Shown here piece by piece: positions 16,598-35,991 of a stretch of 64,000 bases of DNA. Numbering within the stretch: the stretch's first letter is position 1; every line of letters starts with the position of its first letter. The position numbers and the translations under genes were made by a program. The notes beneath the pieces are model-generated. The model saw only the letters and a program-made list of their open reading frames with translations. It made no database searches and had not been told where the DNA came from. The DNA comes from Streptomyces sp. MMBL 11-1 (GTDB lineage Bacteria; Actinomycetota; Actinomycetes; Streptomycetales; Streptomycetaceae), in assembly GCF_028622875.1 (NCBI RefSeq), contig NZ_CP117709.1:5583001-5647000 (forward strand), given 5' to 3'.

Positions 16598-16941
16598 ACA
16601 CCCGCGGGCCGCGGCGCCGGGATGGGACCCTCAGCCCATCCGGCACCGCAGCCCGGAGCTACCTGGCCGGCGGTGTGCGGTGCCTCCGGCCACTGGAGGC
16701 ACCGGCGCAGTCAGGGCAGAGAGTGCCGGAGCCTCGGTCCGCTCTCCTGTGCGGGGAGAGCGGAGGTCGTGATGAATATTGTGGACTAGACCAATTGCCC
16801 GTGTCCATCCATGTGCACGACATTCTCGGGCGGGTCCGCGTTCTCGGGCGGGGTCCGCGCCCGCCCGTCGTCGTACCCATGGCACGGCCCACCACGCCGA
16901 TCGGTTCGAACGCCTCCGGTAACCCCAGGTACGCTCCACCC
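16598..16941. other. Intergenic region before the PdtaS-like kinase
   Basis: About 340 nt without a supported gene. It holds a small hairpin (16679-16703, 9-bp arms) and a dre-like site (16780-16795). An open frame runs in phase with the kinase from 16675, but it crosses both signals and shows no conserved character. Confidence 0.6.
16780..16795. promoter_or_regulatory. DasR-type operator upstream of the PdtaS-like kinase
   Basis: The core TGGACTAGACCA (16782-16793) matches the dre core TGGTCTAGACCA at 11 of 12 positions, centred about 154 bp before the kinase start. It suggests that DasR also controls this kinase. Confidence 0.75.
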
Positions 16942-23494: not shown

Positions 23495-24691
23495 TCAGGA
23501 GGAGGCCAGCCAGAGGTCCGGGCCGAACACCTCGTAGTGGATGTCGGCGGGCCGGACGCCCGCCTCCAGCAGCTGGGCCCTGACGGCCCGCATGAAGGGG
23601 AGCGGGCCGCACAGATAGGCGTGCGTCCCCGGCCGTACGGTGATGCCGTCCAGGTCGACGAGGCCGGTGCGGTTCGCCGGCTGCCCGGCCTCCGGGGTCT
23701 CGTACCAGAAGTGCGCCTCGGCGTCGGCCAGCTTCTCCGTCAGCCGGACGTGGTCGTTCCGCAGGGCGTGGTCGGCCGGTGAGCGGTCGCCGTGCACGAC
23801 GGTGACCGGGCCGCGGTGGCCCTCCTGGGCGAGGTACTCCAGCATCGACAGCATGGGGGTGCAGCCGATGCCCGCCGAGGCCAGCAGCAGGGGCGCGTCC
23901 AGCTGGTCGAGCACCAGGTCCCCGTAGGGGACGGAGACGCGCAGCAGGTCGCCCGCGCGGGTCTGCTCGTGCAGGTGCCGGGAGACCTCGCCGTCGGGTG
24001 AGCCCTCGCCGCGCACGCGCTTCACGGTGATCGACCGCAGCCGGGAGCCGGGGGCGCTGGAGAGGCTGTACTGGCGTATCTGGCGGGCTCCGTCCGGGAG
24101 CCCGACCTGTACGGAGACGTACTGGCCGGGCCGGAAGGAGGGCGGGGGCGTGTCCCCGGCGGGGCGCAGCAGGAAGGTGGCGACGTCCTCGGTCTCCTCG
24201 ACCCGGGCGGCCACCTCCCAGGTGTGCCACACCTCGCCCGCCAGGACGCCCTGCTGCGCGTAGAGGCGCTCCTCGACGGCGATGAGGGAGCCCGCCATCA
24301 GCCAGTAGACCTCATCCCAGGCGGCGGCGACCTCCGGGGTGACGGCGTCGCCCAGGACGTCGGCGATGGCCGCGAACAGATGGGTGTGCACCACCTCGTA
24401 CTGCTCCGGGGTCACCCCGAGCGAGGCGTGCTTGTGGGCGATGCGGTCCAGCATCACGTCGGGCCGGGTGCCGGGGTGCTCGACCAGTGCGGTCGCGAAC
24501 GCGGCGATGGACCCGGCCAGGGCCCTGCGCTGGTCGCCGGAGGCCTGGTTGCCCCGGTTGAACAGGTCCCGCAGCAGCTCGGGGTGGGCGGCGAAGAGCT
24601 TCTCGTAGAAGAGGTCGGCGATGTCCCCGATGGCCGCGCCGACGGCGGGAAGGGTGGCGCGGACGGTGGCGGTGGACCGGTCGGAGAGCAT
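23495..24691 (-). CDS. hmp: Flavohemoglobin (nitric oxide dioxygenase)
   Basis: 398 aa from ATG 24691; a 25-codon upstream extension overlaps the regulatory site. The N-terminal globin domain (1-140) holds the proximal His in IAHKHASLGV, with AYE-like contacts. The FAD domain has RQYSLSS and the NAD domain has ASAGIGCTPMLSML. The C-terminal YEVFGPDLWL is also typical. It oxidises NO to nitrate with O2 and NADH. An NsrR-like site lies 54 bp upstream and the nsrR gene follows, so NO should induce it. Confidence 0.93.
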   Translation of the reverse strand: MLSDRSTATVRATLPAVGAAIGDIADLFYEKLFAAHPELLRDLFNRGNQASGDQRRALAGSIAAFATALVEHPGTRPDVMLDRIAHKHASLGVTPEQYEVVHTHLFAAIADVLGDAVTPEVAAAWDEVYWLMAGSLIAVEERLYAQQGVLAGEVWHTWEVAARVEETEDVATFLLRPAGDTPPPSFRPGQYVSVQVGLPDGARQIRQYSLSSAPGSRLRSITVKRVRGEGSPDGEVSRHLHEQTRAGDLLRVSVPYGDLVLDQLDAPLLLASAGIGCTPMLSMLEYLAQEGHRGPVTVVHGDRSPADHALRNDHVRLTEKLADAEAHFWYETPEAGQPANRTGLVDLDGITVRPGTHAYLCGPLPFMRAVRAQLLEAGVRPADIHYEVFGPDLWLASS

Positions 24692-24744
24692 GAAGGGTGG
24701 CTCCTCTGGGGTGGGACGTGCTGCCGGACGGGCGTCGGGCAGGT

Positions 24745-24767
24745 AATTGGTATGGACGATGCGCATT
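24745..24767 (-). promoter_or_regulatory. Candidate NsrR operator upstream of hmp
   Basis: Read on the minus strand, this 23-bp 11-1-11 imperfect inverted repeat begins AATGCGCATCG and ends CCATACCAATT; 7 of 11 positions pair. Its tail TACCAATT resembles the S. coelicolor hmpA NsrR sites as remembered. Confidence 0.6.
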
Positions 24768-24790
24768 TTCGGGCGGGCAGCGTTCCGTCG

Positions 24791-24825
24791 GTGCGGTGCG
24801 GTGCGGTGCGGTGCGGTGCGGTGCG
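24791..24825. repeat. GTGCG pentamer tandem repeat, seven copies
   Basis: Seven exact head-to-tail copies of GTGCG lie between the hmp operator and the nsrR stop. Such runs change length easily by slippage. Confidence 0.9.
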
Positions 24826-24894
24826 GTGGCGGGCGGCCCGGCGTGGGGCCTGGGCCTGGGCCCGGGCCGGGATCGGGTCAGGGCGGGGCGGGGC

Positions 24895-25341
24895 TCAGTC
24901 GGGCGGCGGGCCGCTGCCGATGCCCAGGAGCAGCGGGCCGGTGGGGGAGGCGACGAGGTCGGTGACGGTGATCGGGTCCAGCGTGGCGTAGAAGGCATCC
25001 TGGGCCGCGCGCAGGGCCCCGCGCAGCCGGCAGGCGGAGCGGAGCGGGCAGGGGGTGTCGCCCTCGCACTCGACCACTTCCTCCGGCCCCTCCAGCTCCC
25101 GCACCAGTGAGCCGATCGACGCGGAGCGGCCGGCCGAGGTCAGGGTGAGTCCGCCGCCGCGGCCTCGACGGGCGTCGAGGAGGCCGAGGTGCTGGAGCCG
25201 GGCGACGACCTTCGCGGTGTGGGTGTACGGGACCCGCATGGTTTCCGCCACCTCGCGGGTGGTCGGCGGCTCCTGGCCCTCGGCGACCGCCAGCCGCATG
25301 AGGACGCGGAGCGCCACGTCGGTGAATCTCGTCAGCCGCAT
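24895..25341 (-). CDS. nsrR: NsrR, Rrf2-family nitric-oxide-sensing repressor
   Basis: 148 aa from ATG 25341 (MRLTRFTDVALRVLM); eight further in-frame codons upstream lie beside the operator. The winged helix has REVAETMRVPYTHTAKVVARL. The cluster ligands C-x5-C-x5-C (CEGDTPCPLRSAC) and Asp8 match the [4Fe-4S] ligands described for S. coelicolor NsrR. NO destroys the cluster and releases DNA. Targets here are hmp and probably nsrR itself, through the palindrome just upstream. Confidence 0.92.
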   Translation of the reverse strand: MRLTRFTDVALRVLMRLAVAEGQEPPTTREVAETMRVPYTHTAKVVARLQHLGLLDARRGRGGGLTLTSAGRSASIGSLVRELEGPEEVVECEGDTPCPLRSACRLRGALRAAQDAFYATLDPITVTDLVASPTGPLLLGIGSGPPPD

Positions 25342-25356
25342 GGGGTCACCGTAGAT

Positions 25357-25379
25357 AAGTTGCATCGGGGATGCAAATT
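25357..25379. promoter_or_regulatory. NsrR-like operator between nsrR and the encapsulin gene
   Basis: Arms AAGTTGCATC and GATGCAAATT (9 of 10 paired, 7 bp perfect at the centre) flank a 3-bp spacer. It is 16 bp from the nsrR start and about 139 bp from the divergent shell gene, so it may serve both. Confidence 0.75.
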
Positions 25380-25517
25380 AAGCGGGGCGCCGGGCGACGA
25401 GGAGCAACGTGCCCCGACCGAAGGCGGATTAGTCGCACTCTTTTGTGTAATGGCGACCCGGCCCTCCTGCTGAAAGGCTTTTGCACGCAGGTCAGCCCAA
25501 GATCGAAAGGACGTCAG

Positions 25518-26924
25518 ATGTCCGTTGGTGAAGAGGTTCGCGACACGCAGGCGCCGCCGCAGCAGAGTCTGGGGACGGCGGCTGCGCGGAACCTCGCGAC
25601 GACCACCAAATCCGCGCCGCAGATGCAGGAGATCACCTCACGGTGGCTGCTGAAGATGCTGCCGTGGGTGCAGGTACAGGGCGGTACGTACCGGGTGAAC
25701 CGTCGGCTCAGCTATGCGGTCGGCGACGGCCGGGTGACCTTCGTCCAGACCGGGGAGCGGGTGGCCGTGATCCCCGCGGAGCTGGGGGAGCTGCCCGCCC
25801 TGCGGGAGTTCGGCGACGAGGAGGTGCTCGCCGAGCTCGCCCGCAGGTGCGAGCAGCGGGACGTGGCCGCGGGGGAGGTGCTCGCCGCCTCGGGGGACGC
25901 GGCGGACCGGGTCTTCCTGCTGGCGCACGGCAAGGTGGCGAAGGTCGGATCGGGCCCCTACGGGGACGAGACGGAGCTCGGGGTCCTCGCGGACGGCTCG
26001 TACTTCGGCGACCAGAGCCTGATCGACGGCGACGCCGTCTGGGAGTACACCGCCCGCGCGCTCACCCCCTGCACGCTCCTCACCCTGAGCCGTGCCGACG
26101 TGTACAACCTCGCGGAGCGCGCGGCATCCCTGCAGGACCATCTCGCGAATCTGCTCTCCATTCCGCAGCAGCGGACCAACCGCTACGGCGAGGCGGCGAT
26201 CGACCTCTCCGCCGGCCATGTGGGGGAGGCGGTCGTCCCGCACACCTTCGTCGACTACGACGCGGCGCCGCGCGAGTACGAACTGAGCGTCGCCCAGACA
26301 GTGCTGAAGGTGCACAGCAGGGTCGCCGATCTCTACAACCAGCCGATGAACCAGACCGAGCAGCAGTTGCGGCTCACGGTCGAGGCGCTGCGTGAGCGCC
26401 AGGAGCACGAGCTGATCAACAACAAGGAGTTCGGACTGCTCAACAACTGCGACTACGGGCAGCGGCTCCAGCCGCACGACGGGGCGCCCAGCCCGGACGA
26501 CATGGACGAACTGCTCTCGCGGCGCCGCGGATCCAAGCTCTTCCTCGCCCACCCGAAGGCCATCGCCGCCTTCGGCCGCGAGTGCAACCGGCGTGGACTC
26601 GTCCCGGAGAGCGTCGACATCGGCGGCCACCACGTGCCCGCCTGGCGCGGGGTGCCGATCTTCCCGTCCAACAAGATCCCCATCTCCGACGCCCGCACCA
26701 CGTCCATCATCTGCATGAGGACGGGCGAGGCCGAGCAGGGCGTCATCGGCCTCCAGCAGACCGGTATCCCCGACGAGATCGAGCCGAGTCTCTCGGTCCG
26801 CTTCATGGGCATCGACGAGCAGGCGATCATCTCCTACCTCGTGACGGCGTACTACTCCGCCGCGATCCTGGTACCGGACGCCCTCGGAGTGCTGGAGAAC
26901 GTCGAGGTCAGCCGCTGGCACTGA
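25518..26924 (+). CDS. eshA: Family 2B encapsulin shell protein (EshA-type, with cNMP-binding-like domain)
   Basis: 468 aa from ATG 25518, with GAAAGGA upstream. A flexible N-terminal arm ([19 protein letters not shown]) leads to the HK97-like shell fold, which is split by an inserted cyclic-nucleotide-binding-like domain (about residues 100-215). The shell fold then resumes ([20 protein letters not shown]) to the C-terminus ([20 protein letters not shown]). This order is diagnostic of Family 2B encapsulins, which assemble into roughly 60-subunit icosahedral nanocompartments. EshA in S. griseus and S. coelicolor affects growth, ppGpp and antibiotic production. The adjacent prenyl synthase is the expected cargo. 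Whether this copy is eshA or its paralogue cannot be settled from sequence alone. Confidence 0.95.
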
Positions 26925-26935
26925 CCTGGTTCACC

Positions 26936-26973
26936 CCGGGGGTCCGGGTGGCGGCCGCCACCCGGACCCCCGG
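26936..26973. terminator. Perfect 38-bp palindrome between shell and cargo genes
   Basis: A perfect inverted repeat without spacer starts 11 nt after the shell stop and ends 30 nt before the cargo start. No T-run follows. It may partly terminate transcription, so that more shell than cargo is made. Confidence 0.75.
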
Positions 26974-27003
26974 CCCCGCACCCCATCGCCCCAGGGAGTC
27001 ACC

Positions 27004-28053
27004 GTGACCATGACCAGTACGGACGCAGCGACGGAAGGGCACGAGGCCGCGGCGCTCCTGGAGCGCACCCGTGCCGTCGTCGACCCGCATCTGCGATCGG
27101 CCGTGGAGTCGCTGCCCGGCGGCATACGCCGCATCGCGATGTACCACTTCGGCTGGCAGAACGCCGACGGAACCCCTGCCACCGGCCAGGCGGGCAAGGC
27201 CATCAGACCGGCCCTCGTGCTGGCCGCCGCCAGCGCGCTGGGCGGCGATCCGGAACGCGCCGTCCGGGCCGCCGTCGCCGTCGAACTCGCCCACAACTTC
27301 ACCCTGCTCCACGACGACGTCATCGACGAGGACACCACCCGCAGGCACCGGCCCACCGCCTGGGCGGTCTTCGGCGTCCCGGACGCCATCATCACCGGCG
27401 ACGCCATGCTCGCCCTCGCCCAGCGGCTGCTGGCCGAGGACGGACACCCGGCCGCCGCCCGCGCCGCCGCCCGCCTCTCCTCCTGCGTCATCGAGCTGTG
27501 CGCGGGCCAGCAGGCGGACTGCGCCTTCGAGGAGCGCGGCCCCGACGAGGTCACGCTCGACGAATGCCTCGCCATGGCCACCGCCAAGACCGGCGCGCTG
27601 CTCGGCTGCGCCTGTGCGCTCGGAGCCCTCTACGCCGGGGCGGAGGACCGGGCGGTCCGAGCGATGGACGGTTTCGGGCGGGAGGCGGGCCTCTCGTTCC
27701 AGCTCATCGACGACCTGATCGGCATCTGGGGCGACCCGGACCGGACCGGCAAGCCCGTCGGGGCCGACCTCTCGGCCCACAAGAAGTCCCTGCCCGTGGT
27801 CGCCGCCCTCACCTCGGGCACCCCGGCCGCCACCGAGCTCGCCACGCTCTACCGGGGGCCCATGACCACCTTGGGCGAGGTGAACCGGGCGGCCGACGCG
27901 GTGGACAGGGCCGGCGGCCGGGACTGGGCCCAGGTCTGCGCGGCCGACCGGATGGCCCGAGCGGTCCACCACCTCTCCCGCGCGGTCCCCGACCCGAGCG
28001 CGGCCGGCGACCTGCTGGCCCTGGCCGAATTCGTCACCCGCAGGACCAGCTGA
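27004..28053 (+). CDS. Polyprenyl diphosphate synthase, probable encapsulin cargo
   Basis: 349 aa from GTG 27004, with AGGGAG six bases upstream. An all-alpha isoprenoid synthase. The first Asp-rich motif is LLHDDVIDED, allylic binding. The second is FQLIDDLIGIWGD, where DDxxG replaces the usual DDxxD. KAIRP and KTGALLG supply the lysines that bind diphosphate. It condenses IPP with allylic diphosphates. Genes of this type directly after a Family 2B shell gene encode known or predicted cargo. The first 30 residues (MTMTSTDAATEGHEAAAL...) are polar and probably disordered, as expected of a cargo-loading tail. Confidence 0.9.
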   Translation: MTMTSTDAATEGHEAAALLERTRAVVDPHLRSAVESLPGGIRRIAMYHFGWQNADGTPATGQAGKAIRPALVLAAASALGGDPERAVRAAVAVELAHNFTLLHDDVIDEDTTRRHRPTAWAVFGVPDAIITGDAMLALAQRLLAEDGHPAAARAAARLSSCVIELCAGQQADCAFEERGPDEVTLDECLAMATAKTGALLGCACALGALYAGAEDRAVRAMDGFGREAGLSFQLIDDLIGIWGDPDRTGKPVGADLSAHKKSLPVVAALTSGTPAATELATLYRGPMTTLGEVNRAADAVDRAGGRDWAQVCAADRMARAVHHLSRAVPDPSAAGDLLALAEFVTRRTS

Positions 28054-28142
28054 TCCCTCTCACGTGACCGGCGCCGCCTCATCAACCCTAGGATCCCGGT
28101 GGTTGGTTGAGCGAAAGCGGCACGGAAGGGCGGCGGCCGGTC

Positions 28143-28739
28143 ATGGGCATACGGATTCAGCGGGCGGAGCAGCACGACCGGGAGCTGGTCGTCTCGGTCA
28201 TGGAGGAAGCGTTCCACCACGACCCGGTCAGCAGCTGGGTGTTCCCCGACGAGAGGCACCGGCGTGCGGTCCACGGCAGGTTCCTCGGCGTCTTCGTCGA
28301 CGTCGCCCTCGCCGAGGGCCGTATCGACATCGCCGAGGACGGCGCCGCGGTGGCGCTCTGGCTCCCGGTGCCCGCCGGGGCGCCCGACGCGGAGGACCCC
28401 ACGCCCGCCCTGATGCGACGGACCGCCGACCCCGACAACGAGCGCTGCGAGCTGGTGGGCAGGCTCACCGGGGCCGTGCACCCGCACGACCGTGCGCACG
28501 CCTATCTGCTGATGATCGGCGTCACCCCCGACCGCCAGGGGGAGGGCATCGGCGCGGAGCTGATCGGAGCGGAGCTGGAGCGCTGCGACCGGGAGGGGCT
28601 GCCGGCCTATCTGGAGGCGAGCAGCGCCCGGAGCCGGACACTGTACGAGCGGCTCGGATTCCGCTTCCTCGGCCGTGCCGTCGACCTGCCGGACGGCCCG
28701 CCGATGTACCCCATGTGGCGGGAACCGCAAGCAGGTTGA
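28143..28739 (+). CDS. GNAT-family N-acetyltransferase
   Basis: 198 aa from ATG 28143; a TTG at 28107 in the same frame is possible and would add 12 codons. The acetyl-CoA loop is IGVTPDRQGEGIGAELIG (Q/RxxGxG/A), followed by the YLEASSARSRTLYERLGFRF motif of the C-terminal half. It transfers acetyl from acetyl-CoA to an amine; the substrate is unknown. It starts 90 nt after the prenyl synthase and may share its transcript, so it could modify the shell, the cargo or the cargo's product. Confidence 0.8.
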   Translation: MGIRIQRAEQHDRELVVSVMEEAFHHDPVSSWVFPDERHRRAVHGRFLGVFVDVALAEGRIDIAEDGAAVALWLPVPAGAPDAEDPTPALMRRTADPDNERCELVGRLTGAVHPHDRAHAYLLMIGVTPDRQGEGIGAELIGAELERCDREGLPAYLEASSARSRTLYERLGFRFLGRAVDLPDGPPMYPMWREPQAG

Positions 28740-28795
28740 CCCTCGGTGGAGGGTGGTAGGGAAGCCGTCCGGGGCAGGGGCTACAGTCCCTGCTC

Positions 28796-29464
28796 ATGAC
28801 AGATGAGTCGTGGGCCGGCTGGTACCGGGACACCAAGGGTTCCGACGCCGTCGTTCTCACCACGGACGGGCGGCAGCTCCGGATCCGCATCAGAGGGGTC
28901 GACTTCGAGGGCGAGAGCTTCGACGACCTGGGGCCGGTCGCCGGTATGCCGCCGGAGAGCGGGATGTTCGCTCTCGCGGACGGCGTCCTCACCGACTGCG
29001 TGCTGGAGTGGGACCTGCCGCTGCCCGTCGTCGTCGCGGGCGCGCTCCGCCACGCCACGCTCAGTTGCCTGCTCTCCCTGCGCCGCGCCGACCCCGACCT
29101 CCACCTCGCGCTCCATCTGGACGGCGCGGTGTACGAATCGGCGCGCGCCGAGCGCGACTTCAACGCCGCCCTGACCGCCGTCCAGCGGACCCTTCCGGAC
29201 GGCGTCCGGATCCAGACCTGTATAGCCTGCGCCTTCTCCGACTACTTCCCGGCCCCCGGCCGGGGCCTCTCCGGCGGTCTCGCCTGCTTCCGGGGGGCCA
29301 AGGACGCCTATCGGGGCTCGGCGGGCGAGGACGACGTGCTGGATCTGTGGGACCAGCGGTCCGGGTTCGTCCAGGAGGTCTGGAGCTGCCGCGAGTTCGA
29401 GGTGCGCCCGGCAGACGGCGCGGGCACCGGCCACCGGGGAGCCTTCCCGCTGGAACTCGCCTGA
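28796..29464 (+). CDS. Conserved actinobacterial protein of unknown function
   Basis: 222 aa. No signal peptide or membrane helix. The N-terminal part is beta-rich (SDAVVLTTDGRQLRIRIRGV), the middle has alternating hydrophobic strands (LHLALHLDGAVYESARAER), and CIACAFSDYFP contains two cysteines. The tail includes LWDQRSGFVQEVWSCREFE. It resembles small uncharacterised Streptomyces cytosolic proteins. No catalytic motif is recognised. It lies about 56 nt after the GNAT gene in the same direction. Confidence 0.7.
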   Translation: MTDESWAGWYRDTKGSDAVVLTTDGRQLRIRIRGVDFEGESFDDLGPVAGMPPESGMFALADGVLTDCVLEWDLPLPVVVAGALRHATLSCLLSLRRADPDLHLALHLDGAVYESARAERDFNAALTAVQRTLPDGVRIQTCIACAFSDYFPAPGRGLSGGLACFRGAKDAYRGSAGEDDVLDLWDQRSGFVQEVWSCREFEVRPADGAGTGHRGAFPLELA

Positions 29465-29692
29465 CCCGACCGGAACCACCCGCCCCCACGGAGACCCCCC
29501 GTCACCACGCGGACCCCCGCCACCACGCGGACCCCGCCGCCACGGGGTCACCCGCCACCGCCGGGGCCGCCCACCTCCGCTGAGCCGCCCGCATCCCCCC
29601 CCGTACCGCATCCATCCCGTAACGCGTCCGCCCCGTACCCATCCGGTACGGGGCGGACGCGCGTCGTCCCGTGCCCTGTTGCCCATGCCTCA

Positions 29693-34200: not shown

Positions 34201-34314
34201 CGTACCGCTTCGTGTGCGTGTCGCGGCGAAGAAACCTCCTATAGGCCTACGTAAAGGGGCAAGCGCGGCGTGTCATACAAAGTGACTAAGTGTTAACCAT
34301 GCATATTGCGCGGC

Positions 34315-35991
34315 ATGGAACAGAAGGCGCGCAGGCGCGGCAACGCAATCCGGGCAGCAGTGACAGTGGCCACGGCCGCGGCGATGGTGGGCGTGCTGGC
34401 CCCGGCCGCGGGTGCCGATCCGCTGCCGGGCGGACTGGGACCCTGCCTCGGCAGCTCCTGCCCGTCCAGCTGGAACGACCCGAACAACGGCCCGGTCACC
34501 AACTTCGACAGCAACATCAACGTCTACGTCGGCGGGGACTTCCTGGTCCGGGAGGCGGCGGCCGAGGCGGAGGGGAAGGTCGTCACCCTCGGACAGTTCG
34601 ACATGGACAAGCGGGACGGGGTCTCGCAGATCTACAACGTCGGGATCGCGGGCGTGGGTTCGCGGGTGCCGCCGCCGGACGGCTCCGACTACCTCACGGC
34701 GGGCGGCGACGTGACCATCGCCGCCGGCGAGCGCCTGCTCGCCGAGGAGGGCACGCACTCCGGCCGCGTCGCGTACGCGGGTGAGCTCACGGGCACGGTG
34801 AACCCCACCACCGCCCCCCGTTTCGACCCGGACGCGGCCGCCCCGTACACGGAGCTGCGCCCGCAGCTCACCGAGGCCAGCCGCTGCTACGCGTATGAGG
34901 GCGACGAGCACCGGGAGGCGACGGGCACCTGGGTGAAGACCGGTGACGTCATGACGTTCACCGGTGACGGCTCGTCCGCGATCCAGATCTTCGACGTGGA
35001 CGCGGACCTGGAGTCGGAGGCCGGCGGCAACACGGGGTTCGTGTTCAACGGTATCCCCGAGGGCGCGACCGTCCTCGTCAACGTCTACGGCTCCACCCGC
35101 AGCGTCGCCACGTTCATGGGCTCGTTCCCCAACGAGGGCCTCCGCGAGAACCTGTTGTGGAACTTCCCGGACGCCACCGACCTCTCCTTGACCGGCCCGG
35201 CCCAGTTCGAGGGCAGCGTGCTGGTGGGCCAGCCGACGAGCACCACCGTGCTCAGCATGAGCGGCACCAACGGCCGTTTCTACACGGCGGGTTCGCTCAC
35301 CCACACCTCGGCGGGGTCGTCGGGCGGCCAGGAGATCCACGCGTACCCCTTCGACGGCGACCTGCCGACCTGCTCGCCCGACCCGACGCCGACGCCGACG
35401 GACCCGACGCCGACTCCCACGGACCCGACGCCGACTCCCACGGACCCGACGCCGACTCCCACGGACCCGACGCCGACTCCCACGGACCCGACGCCGACGC
35501 CGACGGATCCGACGCCGACTCCCACGGACCCGACGCCGACCCCCACCGACCCGACGCCGACTCCCACGGATCCCACGCCGACCCCGACGGACCCGACGCC
35601 GACCCCGACGGACCCGACGCCGACCCCCACGGACCCGACGCCGACGCCGACGGATCCCACGCCGACTCCCACGGACCCCACGCCGACCCCCACCGACCCG
35701 ACGCCGACGCCGACGGACCCGACGCCGACGCCGACGGACCCGACGCCGACGCCGACGGACCCGACGCCGACCCCCACCGACCCCACGCCGACCCCGACAC
35801 ACCCCACTCCCACTCCCACCCCCACCGGCCACACGCCGCATCCCACGCACTCGCCGAGCCATCCGGGTGAGCTGCCCGACACCGGCTCGCGGGGCGGCGA
35901 GTGGATCATCGGGTCCATCGCGGCCGCGCTGGTCGCCGCGGGCGGCACGGTGCTCGTGGCCACGCGCAGGGCTCGTCGCCGCACCTACTAG
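34315..35991 (+). CDS. Sortase-anchored choice-of-anchor A cell-wall protein with DPTPTPT stalk
   Basis: 558 aa from ATG 34315. Signal peptide (basic start, then AAVTVATAAAMVGVLAPAAG, cut after GADPL region). A choice-of-anchor A beta-domain (about 30-350) includes NFDSNINVYVGGDF and NLLWNFPDATDLSLTG. A stalk of twenty DPTPTPT units follows (codons 356-495). It ends with the sorting signal LPDTG, a hydrophobic helix and an Arg-rich tail RRARRRTY. Sortase should link it to peptidoglycan, with the stalk lifting the domain off the wall. LPDTG differs from the LAxTG used by sortase E substrates such as chaplins. Confidence 0.92.
   Translation: MEQKARRRGNAIRAAVTVATAAAMVGVLAPAAGADPLPGGLGPCLGSSCPSSWNDPNNGPVTNFDSNINVYVGGDFLVREAAAEAEGKVVTLGQFDMDKRDGVSQIYNVGIAGVGSRVPPPDGSDYLTAGGDVTIAAGERLLAEEGTHSGRVAYAGELTGTVNPTTAPRFDPDAAAPYTELRPQLTEASRCYAYEGDEHREATGTWVKTGDVMTFTGDGSSAIQIFDVDADLESEAGGNTGFVFNGIPEGATVLVNVYGSTRSVATFMGSFPNEGLRENLLWNFPDATDLSLTGPAQFEGSVLVGQPTSTTVLSMSGTNGRFYTAGSLTHTSAGSSGGQEIHAYPFDGDLPTCSPDPTPTPTDPTPTPTDPTPTPTDPTPTPTDPTPTPTDPTPTPTDPTPTPTDPTPTPTDPTPTPTDPTPTPTDPTPTPTDPTPTPTDPTPTPTDPTPTPTDPTPTPTDPTPTPTDPTPTPTDPTPTPTDPTPTPTDPTPTPTHPTPTPTPTGHTPHPTHSPSHPGELPDTGSRGGEWIIGSIAAALVAAGGTVLVATRRARRRTY
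35380..35799 (+). repeat. Twenty tandem 21-bp units encoding DPTPTPT
   Basis: 420 bp of in-frame 21-nt repeats. Units differ only at third codon positions, which points to recent expansion and makes copy number likely to vary between strains. Confidence 0.95.

Follow-up and report, generated by a model that had tools for sequence, protein, structure and literature searches.

A single-shell family 2B encapsulin operon of the prenyl transferase type in Streptomyces sp. MMBL 11-1

The closest described relatives of the locus presented here are the polyprenyl transferase family 2B encapsulins, of which Andreas & Giessen 2021 count 900 operons (PMC8346489). In the sections of that paper available here, a shell with an inserted cyclic-nucleotide-binding-like (CBD-like) domain is encoded in Actinobacteria with a synthase gene directly downstream, and the prenyl transferase cargo is described with a disordered N-terminal domain of 50-100 residues. 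Polyprenyl diphosphate synthase is also given as the most frequent neighbour of family 2b shells in the available part of a second study (eLife 2021, PMC8049743). Terpene cyclase family 2B encapsulins, of the 2-MIB and geosmin types, share the shell N-arm and domains with the present locus but differ in having a cyclase cargo with the motif GPTGLGT(SAAR), and the putative targeting motif of geosmin-synthase-like cyclases is reported as GPTGLGTSAAR (PMC8346489). The two-component family 2B shell of S. lydicus belongs to the same shell family, with two shells (PMC12407261, in the portion available) where there is one here.

Streptomyces also contain the CBD-bearing multimeric proteins EshA, of S. 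griseus, and EshB (SCO5249), of S. coelicolor. According to the accessible extracts of the respective papers, the 2-MIB gene region of S. coelicolor includes eshA (SCO7699), eshB of the same species is up-regulated in development (PMC3878966, PMC5839063), S. venezuelae eshA is in an operon with 2-MIB genes (PMC6428758), SCO5249 is a possible AtrA target (PMC13170358) and SCO5250 is listed together with isoprenoid genes (PMC7494193). Among the papers listed in a literature survey, none was seen that studies the product of a prenyl-transferase-type cargo.

Shell and synthase of the locus

The DNA analysed is a 64,000-nucleotide stretch (the window) of the 8.5 Mb genome of Streptomyces sp. MMBL 11-1. 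Judged by its sequence and gene order, the locus belongs to a known kind, the family 2B encapsulin operons of the prenyl transferase type, here with a single shell, and the shell-synthase pair is common in Streptomyces. The overall reading that we favour, with fair but not full confidence, adds to this that the cage has its own promoter-like region and a hairpin that favours the shell, and that a geranylgeranyl diphosphate (GGPP) synthase associates with it without a long loading domain. The genes and protein regions concerned are:

25518..26924, + strand: family 2B encapsulin shell protein, 468 aa (NF041163, PF19307, PF00027, PDB 9bhu)
25560..25625, + strand: shell N-arm, with residues of LGT[AS]AAR invariant in an alignment of 33 shells
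25857..26120, + strand: inserted CBD-like domain, shell residues 114-201 (PF00027, E 1.7e-17)
27004..28053, + strand: polyprenyl diphosphate synthase, 349 aa from GTG, with an ATG at 27010 (PF00348, NF041169)
28107..28739, + strand: GNAT-family acetyltransferase, from TTG 28107 or ATG 28143, a doubtful operon member (PF00583)

The shell protein scores 771 bits against NF041163, the NCBI family 2B shell model (cut-off 400), its SrpI-like HK97-type domain (PF19307) spans residues 216-465 with 457 bits, and PDB 9bhu, which we take to be a terpene cyclase-type family 2B encapsulin, aligns to residues 10-467 (E 8e-202). PDB 9bix and 9bje are presumably the two-component shell of S. lydicus. The first-pass annotation had described an HK97-like shell of family 2B with an inserted cyclic-nucleotide-binding-like domain, which these matches bear out, and its coordinates agree with the genes found. 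It had also proposed structure prediction of the shell; the AlphaFold2 model, made from a shallow alignment of 33 sequences, is poor (mean pLDDT 50.7) and unsuited to a fold search, and the fold of the shell therefore rests on homology. It is scarcely credible that the protein has been misread and is actually a Crp/Fnr regulator or a phage capsid: two PDB relatives do bear the title Crp/Fnr family transcriptional regulator, but the family 2B model score and the PDB shell matches contradict both identities, and a phage capsid model reaches only 30 bits against a cut-off of 75. Identity as a defence system was also rejected, as the matches consisted of weak ones of the CBD-like domain and nothing else. 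By analogy with its relatives, the shell protein would most likely form an icosahedral cage by self-assembly, the CBD-like domains lying on the outside.

Fourteen residues precede the invariant N-arm, which begins at Q15, and the low-confidence AlphaFold2 model has a helix at residues 18-28, to be set beside the family 2B feature of approximately 18 disordered residues followed by a short N-helix. All of 27 shells inspected contain LxTxAAR. A match to Sernc350 (Rfam), a Saccharopolyspora antisense RNA, covers 25551-26056 on the minus strand, opposite the 5' portion of the shell gene; it scores 93 bits against a cut-off of 50 and may reflect coding conservation only.

This is the one family 2B shell over cut-off in the genome. 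The closest named loci are from Streptomyces, including S. griseus, whose locus encodes a shell 94% identical to that of the window (L012). We infer that the shell-synthase pair is an eshB-type locus. This assignment bears on the suggestion that the shell serves mainly in developmental signalling, the role put forward for EshA in ppGpp accumulation and differentiation, and that the synthase is a minor client. A review reports that EshA is necessary for adequate ppGpp synthesis and antibiotic production (PMC6627660, part available) and the developmental increase of S. coelicolor eshB (PMC3878966) fits such a role, but the window's shell is an eshB orthologue by presumption, it is closely paired with an isoprenoid enzyme, and in a relative, according to the available portion of PMC12407261, the CBD-like domain does not bind cyclic nucleotides; a signalling role is considered improbable.

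The synthase begins 79 nt after the shell stop and scores 499 bits against NF041169, the family 2 encapsulin polyprenyl transferase cargo model (cut-off 450), in agreement with the polyprenyl diphosphate synthase gene previously annotated at this position. The name 'family 2 encapsulin nanocompartment cargo protein polyprenyl transferase' is already carried by many among the 120 relatives listed. The genome encodes five other PF00348 enzymes, and three of these stay below the cargo model's cut-off of 450, at 408, 380 and 214. In a fold comparison, S. coelicolor 3nf2 (44% identity) ranks first and archaeal GGPP synthases come next. The catalytic motifs are complete: HDDxxDxD and FQLIDDxIGIWG are invariant across 35 aligned synthases, and HNFTLLHDDVIDED in the window's enzyme contains DDxxD without an insertion and with F at -5. 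An aromatic residue five positions before DDxxD, with no insertion, is typical of type I GGPP synthases, and the product is most likely geranylgeranyl diphosphate.

Possible packaging of the adjacent synthase

The pairing of shell and synthase was followed in two surveys, one of 101 genomes of the genus and one of 80 named loci. A family 2B shell was found in 99/101 genomes and a synthase over cut-off in 76/101; 75 of these 76 synthases directly follow a shell on the same strand (median distance between the model matches, 192 nt), and in the sole exception (G076) shell and synthase are on different contigs. This recurrence and the scores over cut-off of both NF041163 and NF041169 give good support to family 2B membership of the shell and to an operon of the prenyl transferase type. 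Scores of this size against curated cut-offs are not chance matches. Among the named loci, 76/80 have a synthase match, two of which are cut by a contig end (L007 and L081). The other four comprise two in which the sequence ends less than 200 nt from the shell (L009 and L069), one with no synthase match in the 7 kb downstream of the shell (L036) and one with none in the 1.6 kb downstream (L042). A further locus, L141 (G082:C1:4313500-4320300), has an intact shell and a synthase match split over two frames, possibly from a sequencing error.

The close pairing of the two genes makes it plausible that the synthase is luminal cargo. The first-pass annotation had suggested that the compartment may confine isoprenoid intermediates. 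However, the disordered N-terminal domain of 50-100 residues by which such cargo has been described is not found in the window's synthase, which is therefore classed by homology and not as proven cargo. The N-terminus had been annotated as disordered-looking; this does not hold, as the AlphaFold2 model has a mean pLDDT of 91.9 and falls below 50 in residues 1-10 only. There are 13 residues ahead of the conserved EAAALL stretch, and no start codon exists in frame upstream of the GTG at 27004. Counting the residues before EAAxLL from the most upstream possible start, in the 64 loci where this anchor motif could be placed (12 of the 76 synthase-bearing loci were omitted as the anchor was not recognised), gave a maximum of about 18 or fewer in 26/64, approximately 19-50 in 27/64 and more than 50 in 11/64. 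No more than a minority of these loci could thus have a disordered domain of 50-100 residues.

It is possible, if somewhat doubtful, that the synthase is unpackaged in this clade and is co-expressed but stays outside or on the surface of the shell, the lumen being otherwise filled or empty. The absence of an N-terminal loading domain is consistent with this, as are the sequence match to the 44%-identical 3nf2, which begins at residue 15 in the window's enzyme and residue 5 in 3nf2, the shell without a synthase match in L036 and the two-frame synthase beside the shell in G082. On the other side stands the position of 75/76 synthases over cut-off directly behind a shell. Under the favoured reading of an associated synthase, association with the cage would probably occur via a folded surface or a peptide of approximately 10 residues, since the long N-terminal domain is absent here. 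Packaging of the synthase would make a cage that produces prenyl diphosphates common equipment of Streptomyces (76/101 genomes), with a loading route other than that described; without packaging, the cargo name on many database entries would be wrong for this clade.

The first-pass annotation had put forward the acetyltransferase as a possible third component. The gene is present after the synthase as annotated (28107 or 28143 to 28739, plus strand), and the proposed search for the same three-gene order in other genomes had a divided outcome: the shell-synthase pair recurs, but among the 72 loci with more than 3 kb of downstream sequence only 33 have a GNAT match, and a core role for GNAT was rejected on that count. 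A true third component, acting on the product or the synthase, is therefore weakly indicated and we consider it unlikely. In 32 of the 72 loci the match lies on the same strand no more than 600 nt past the synthase, in close and distant loci alike (57-96% identity), and acetyltransferases are among the genes enriched near such operons in the available sections of PMC8346489, but 39/72 loci lack a match and gene order is generally conserved in this region. The upstream PALP gene, for instance, is matched in 76/80 loci, the remaining four having less than 600 nt of upstream sequence, so that neighbourhood alone is weak evidence of function at this locus.

A geosmin-synthase-like protein as candidate second cargo

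An unlinked geosmin-synthase-like protein is encoded approximately 5.5 Mb away in the same genome. It scores 1188 bits against the NCBI terpene cyclase cargo model, just below the cut-off of 1200, and ends SGPTGLGTSAAQVTRLMAQLAGSPA, with GPTGLGTSAA at the C-terminus. The LGTSAAR of the cyclase motif is identical to the N-arm of shells in which S replaces the first A, for example that of L063. No mention of this likeness between N-arm and targeting motif was found in the available portions of PMC8346489 and PMC12407261, although it may be in print elsewhere. Because the tag resembles the N-arm LGT[AS]AAR and the genome has one shell, the geosmin-synthase-like enzyme may be a second cargo. The lone shell would then form a two-cargo cage, holding the adjacent GGPP synthase without a classical tag and the distant cyclase in trans, with GPTGLGTSAA mimicking the N-arm and docking at the site of a neighbouring arm. 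This sequence-based proposal is speculative and its being correct is rather unlikely. The resemblance offers a concrete and cheap test of family 2B cargo recognition and of recruitment from distant genes.

A class-wide survey of 196 genomes, counted by hand with cyclase E values up to 1e-100 and shell E values up to 1e-60, found a shell match in 44/44 cyclase-bearing genomes against 12/152 others, a co-occurrence that is confounded by linkage and kinship; among the 44, one shell is below cut-off (G179) and another passes it only together with neighbouring pieces (G116). Outside Streptomyces, a shell is found no more than 2.5 kb from 24/25 cyclases, the remaining one being on another contig (G198). 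Within the genus 0/19 lie within 10 kb, several being on different contigs of draft assemblies.

The C-terminal tag was surveyed in 30 cyclase loci, 11 from outside Streptomyces and 19 from within it. GLGT[SA][AS]A is C-terminal in 8/11 of the former, with changed forms in two (G199 and G217) and no tag seen within the last 45 residues in one (G170). Among the Streptomyces cyclases a C-terminal PTG[LI]GTSAA is present in 6/19, degenerate in one and absent in 12, nine of which carry a GTSAA stretch between domains. Streptomyces has thus lost the tag in part, an observation that weakens the two-cargo proposal, although the window's genome retains it.

Putative expression signals and neighbouring genes

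Upstream of the shell and between the two genes lie the following elements and neighbours:

25436..25453, + strand: promoter-like element CACTCTTTTGTGTAATGG, whose 12-mer TTTGTGTAATGG begins 76 nt before the shell start
26936..26973, + strand: hairpin with a 17-bp stem and 4-nt loop, no T-run (fold z -3.79)
25360..25376, no strand assigned: palindrome TTGCATCGGGGATGCAA, its pattern present in 18/24 sequences (23 loci and the window) with nsrR no more than 300 nt from the shell
24895..25341, - strand: divergent Rrf2-family regulator, NsrR-like, a neighbour only (PF02082; above the TIGR00738 cut-off; 88 bits on the NsrR model against 182)
23495..24691, - strand: flavohaemoprotein-like gene (Hmp), a neighbour only (globin, FAD and NAD domains; NF009805 348 bits, below the cut-off of 432)

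The 12-mer is matched at 9-12 of 12 bases in all 81 sequences (80 loci and the window), and at 12 of 12 in 51. For comparison, 20 stretches were taken from among the shell matches listed, 16 without a synthase over cut-off and four with one; G082, picked among the 16, turned out to hold the two-frame synthase. In this set 5/5 synthase-type shells score 9-12 and 22/22 non-synthase shells score 6-8, the narrowest gap (9 against 8) being one base of 12. The element thus appears to go with the synthase-type operon and is absent from the 22 non-synthase shells. No other site in the genome has fewer than three mismatches to the 18-base form, and a wider regulon was rejected, with two further sites at three mismatches against two for the reversed control pattern. 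No sigma-70-type promoter was found in a scan of 24600-29600, and for this reason the element is called no more than promoter-like. The cage gene would be expressed from this conserved region, whose function is deduced from its sequence.

The hairpin follows the shell stop. In 55% of the 80 loci, and not in the other 45%, the first 60 nt past the shell stop contain perfect arms of 8 bp or more, and the arm sequences vary among lineages. The corresponding figures for three controls are 12% for 800 shuffled sequences, 5% for 74 stretches following the synthase stop and 3% for 800 stretches of coding sequence. A scan of 24600-29600 found no T-run terminator; as the hairpin has no T-run, it may act by partial termination or by protecting the mRNA, and its effect would probably be that shell mRNA exceeds synthase mRNA. 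Rfam at gathering thresholds gave no family for the leader and hairpin, a permissive scan giving four matches far below gathering scores, and no mention of the promoter-like element and hairpin was found in the available sections of PMC8346489.

The nsrR-like gene is matched in 27/80 loci, 23 of which have it no more than 300 nt from the shell; in L019, L021, L023 and L024 it lies 1.6-3 kb from the shell compared with the usual ~180 nt, with extra DNA between. The palindrome goes with nsrR, since almost all matches fall where nsrR is no more than 300 nt from the shell; elsewhere the pattern was seen only in L037, and a dissimilar match in L073. It is probably the operator of the divergent nsrR-like gene and not a general encapsulin element. 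Control of the cage by NsrR and nitric oxide was rejected on the same distribution (17/23 loci with near nsrR).

Beyond these genes, a CGGTG 5-bp perfect repeat of eight copies (24789-24828) lies approximately 100 nt upstream of the hmp-like gene, and a DUF6304 gene downstream (28796-29464) is matched in 60/80 loci, often partially. Elsewhere in the window, a 21-bp tandem repeat of 19.8 copies (35380-35795) codes for a linker of the PTPTD type within an ORF (34306-35991), and the Streptomyces sRNA scr5239 (Rfam) is matched at 16614-16766 on the minus strand with 141 bits (cut-off 64).
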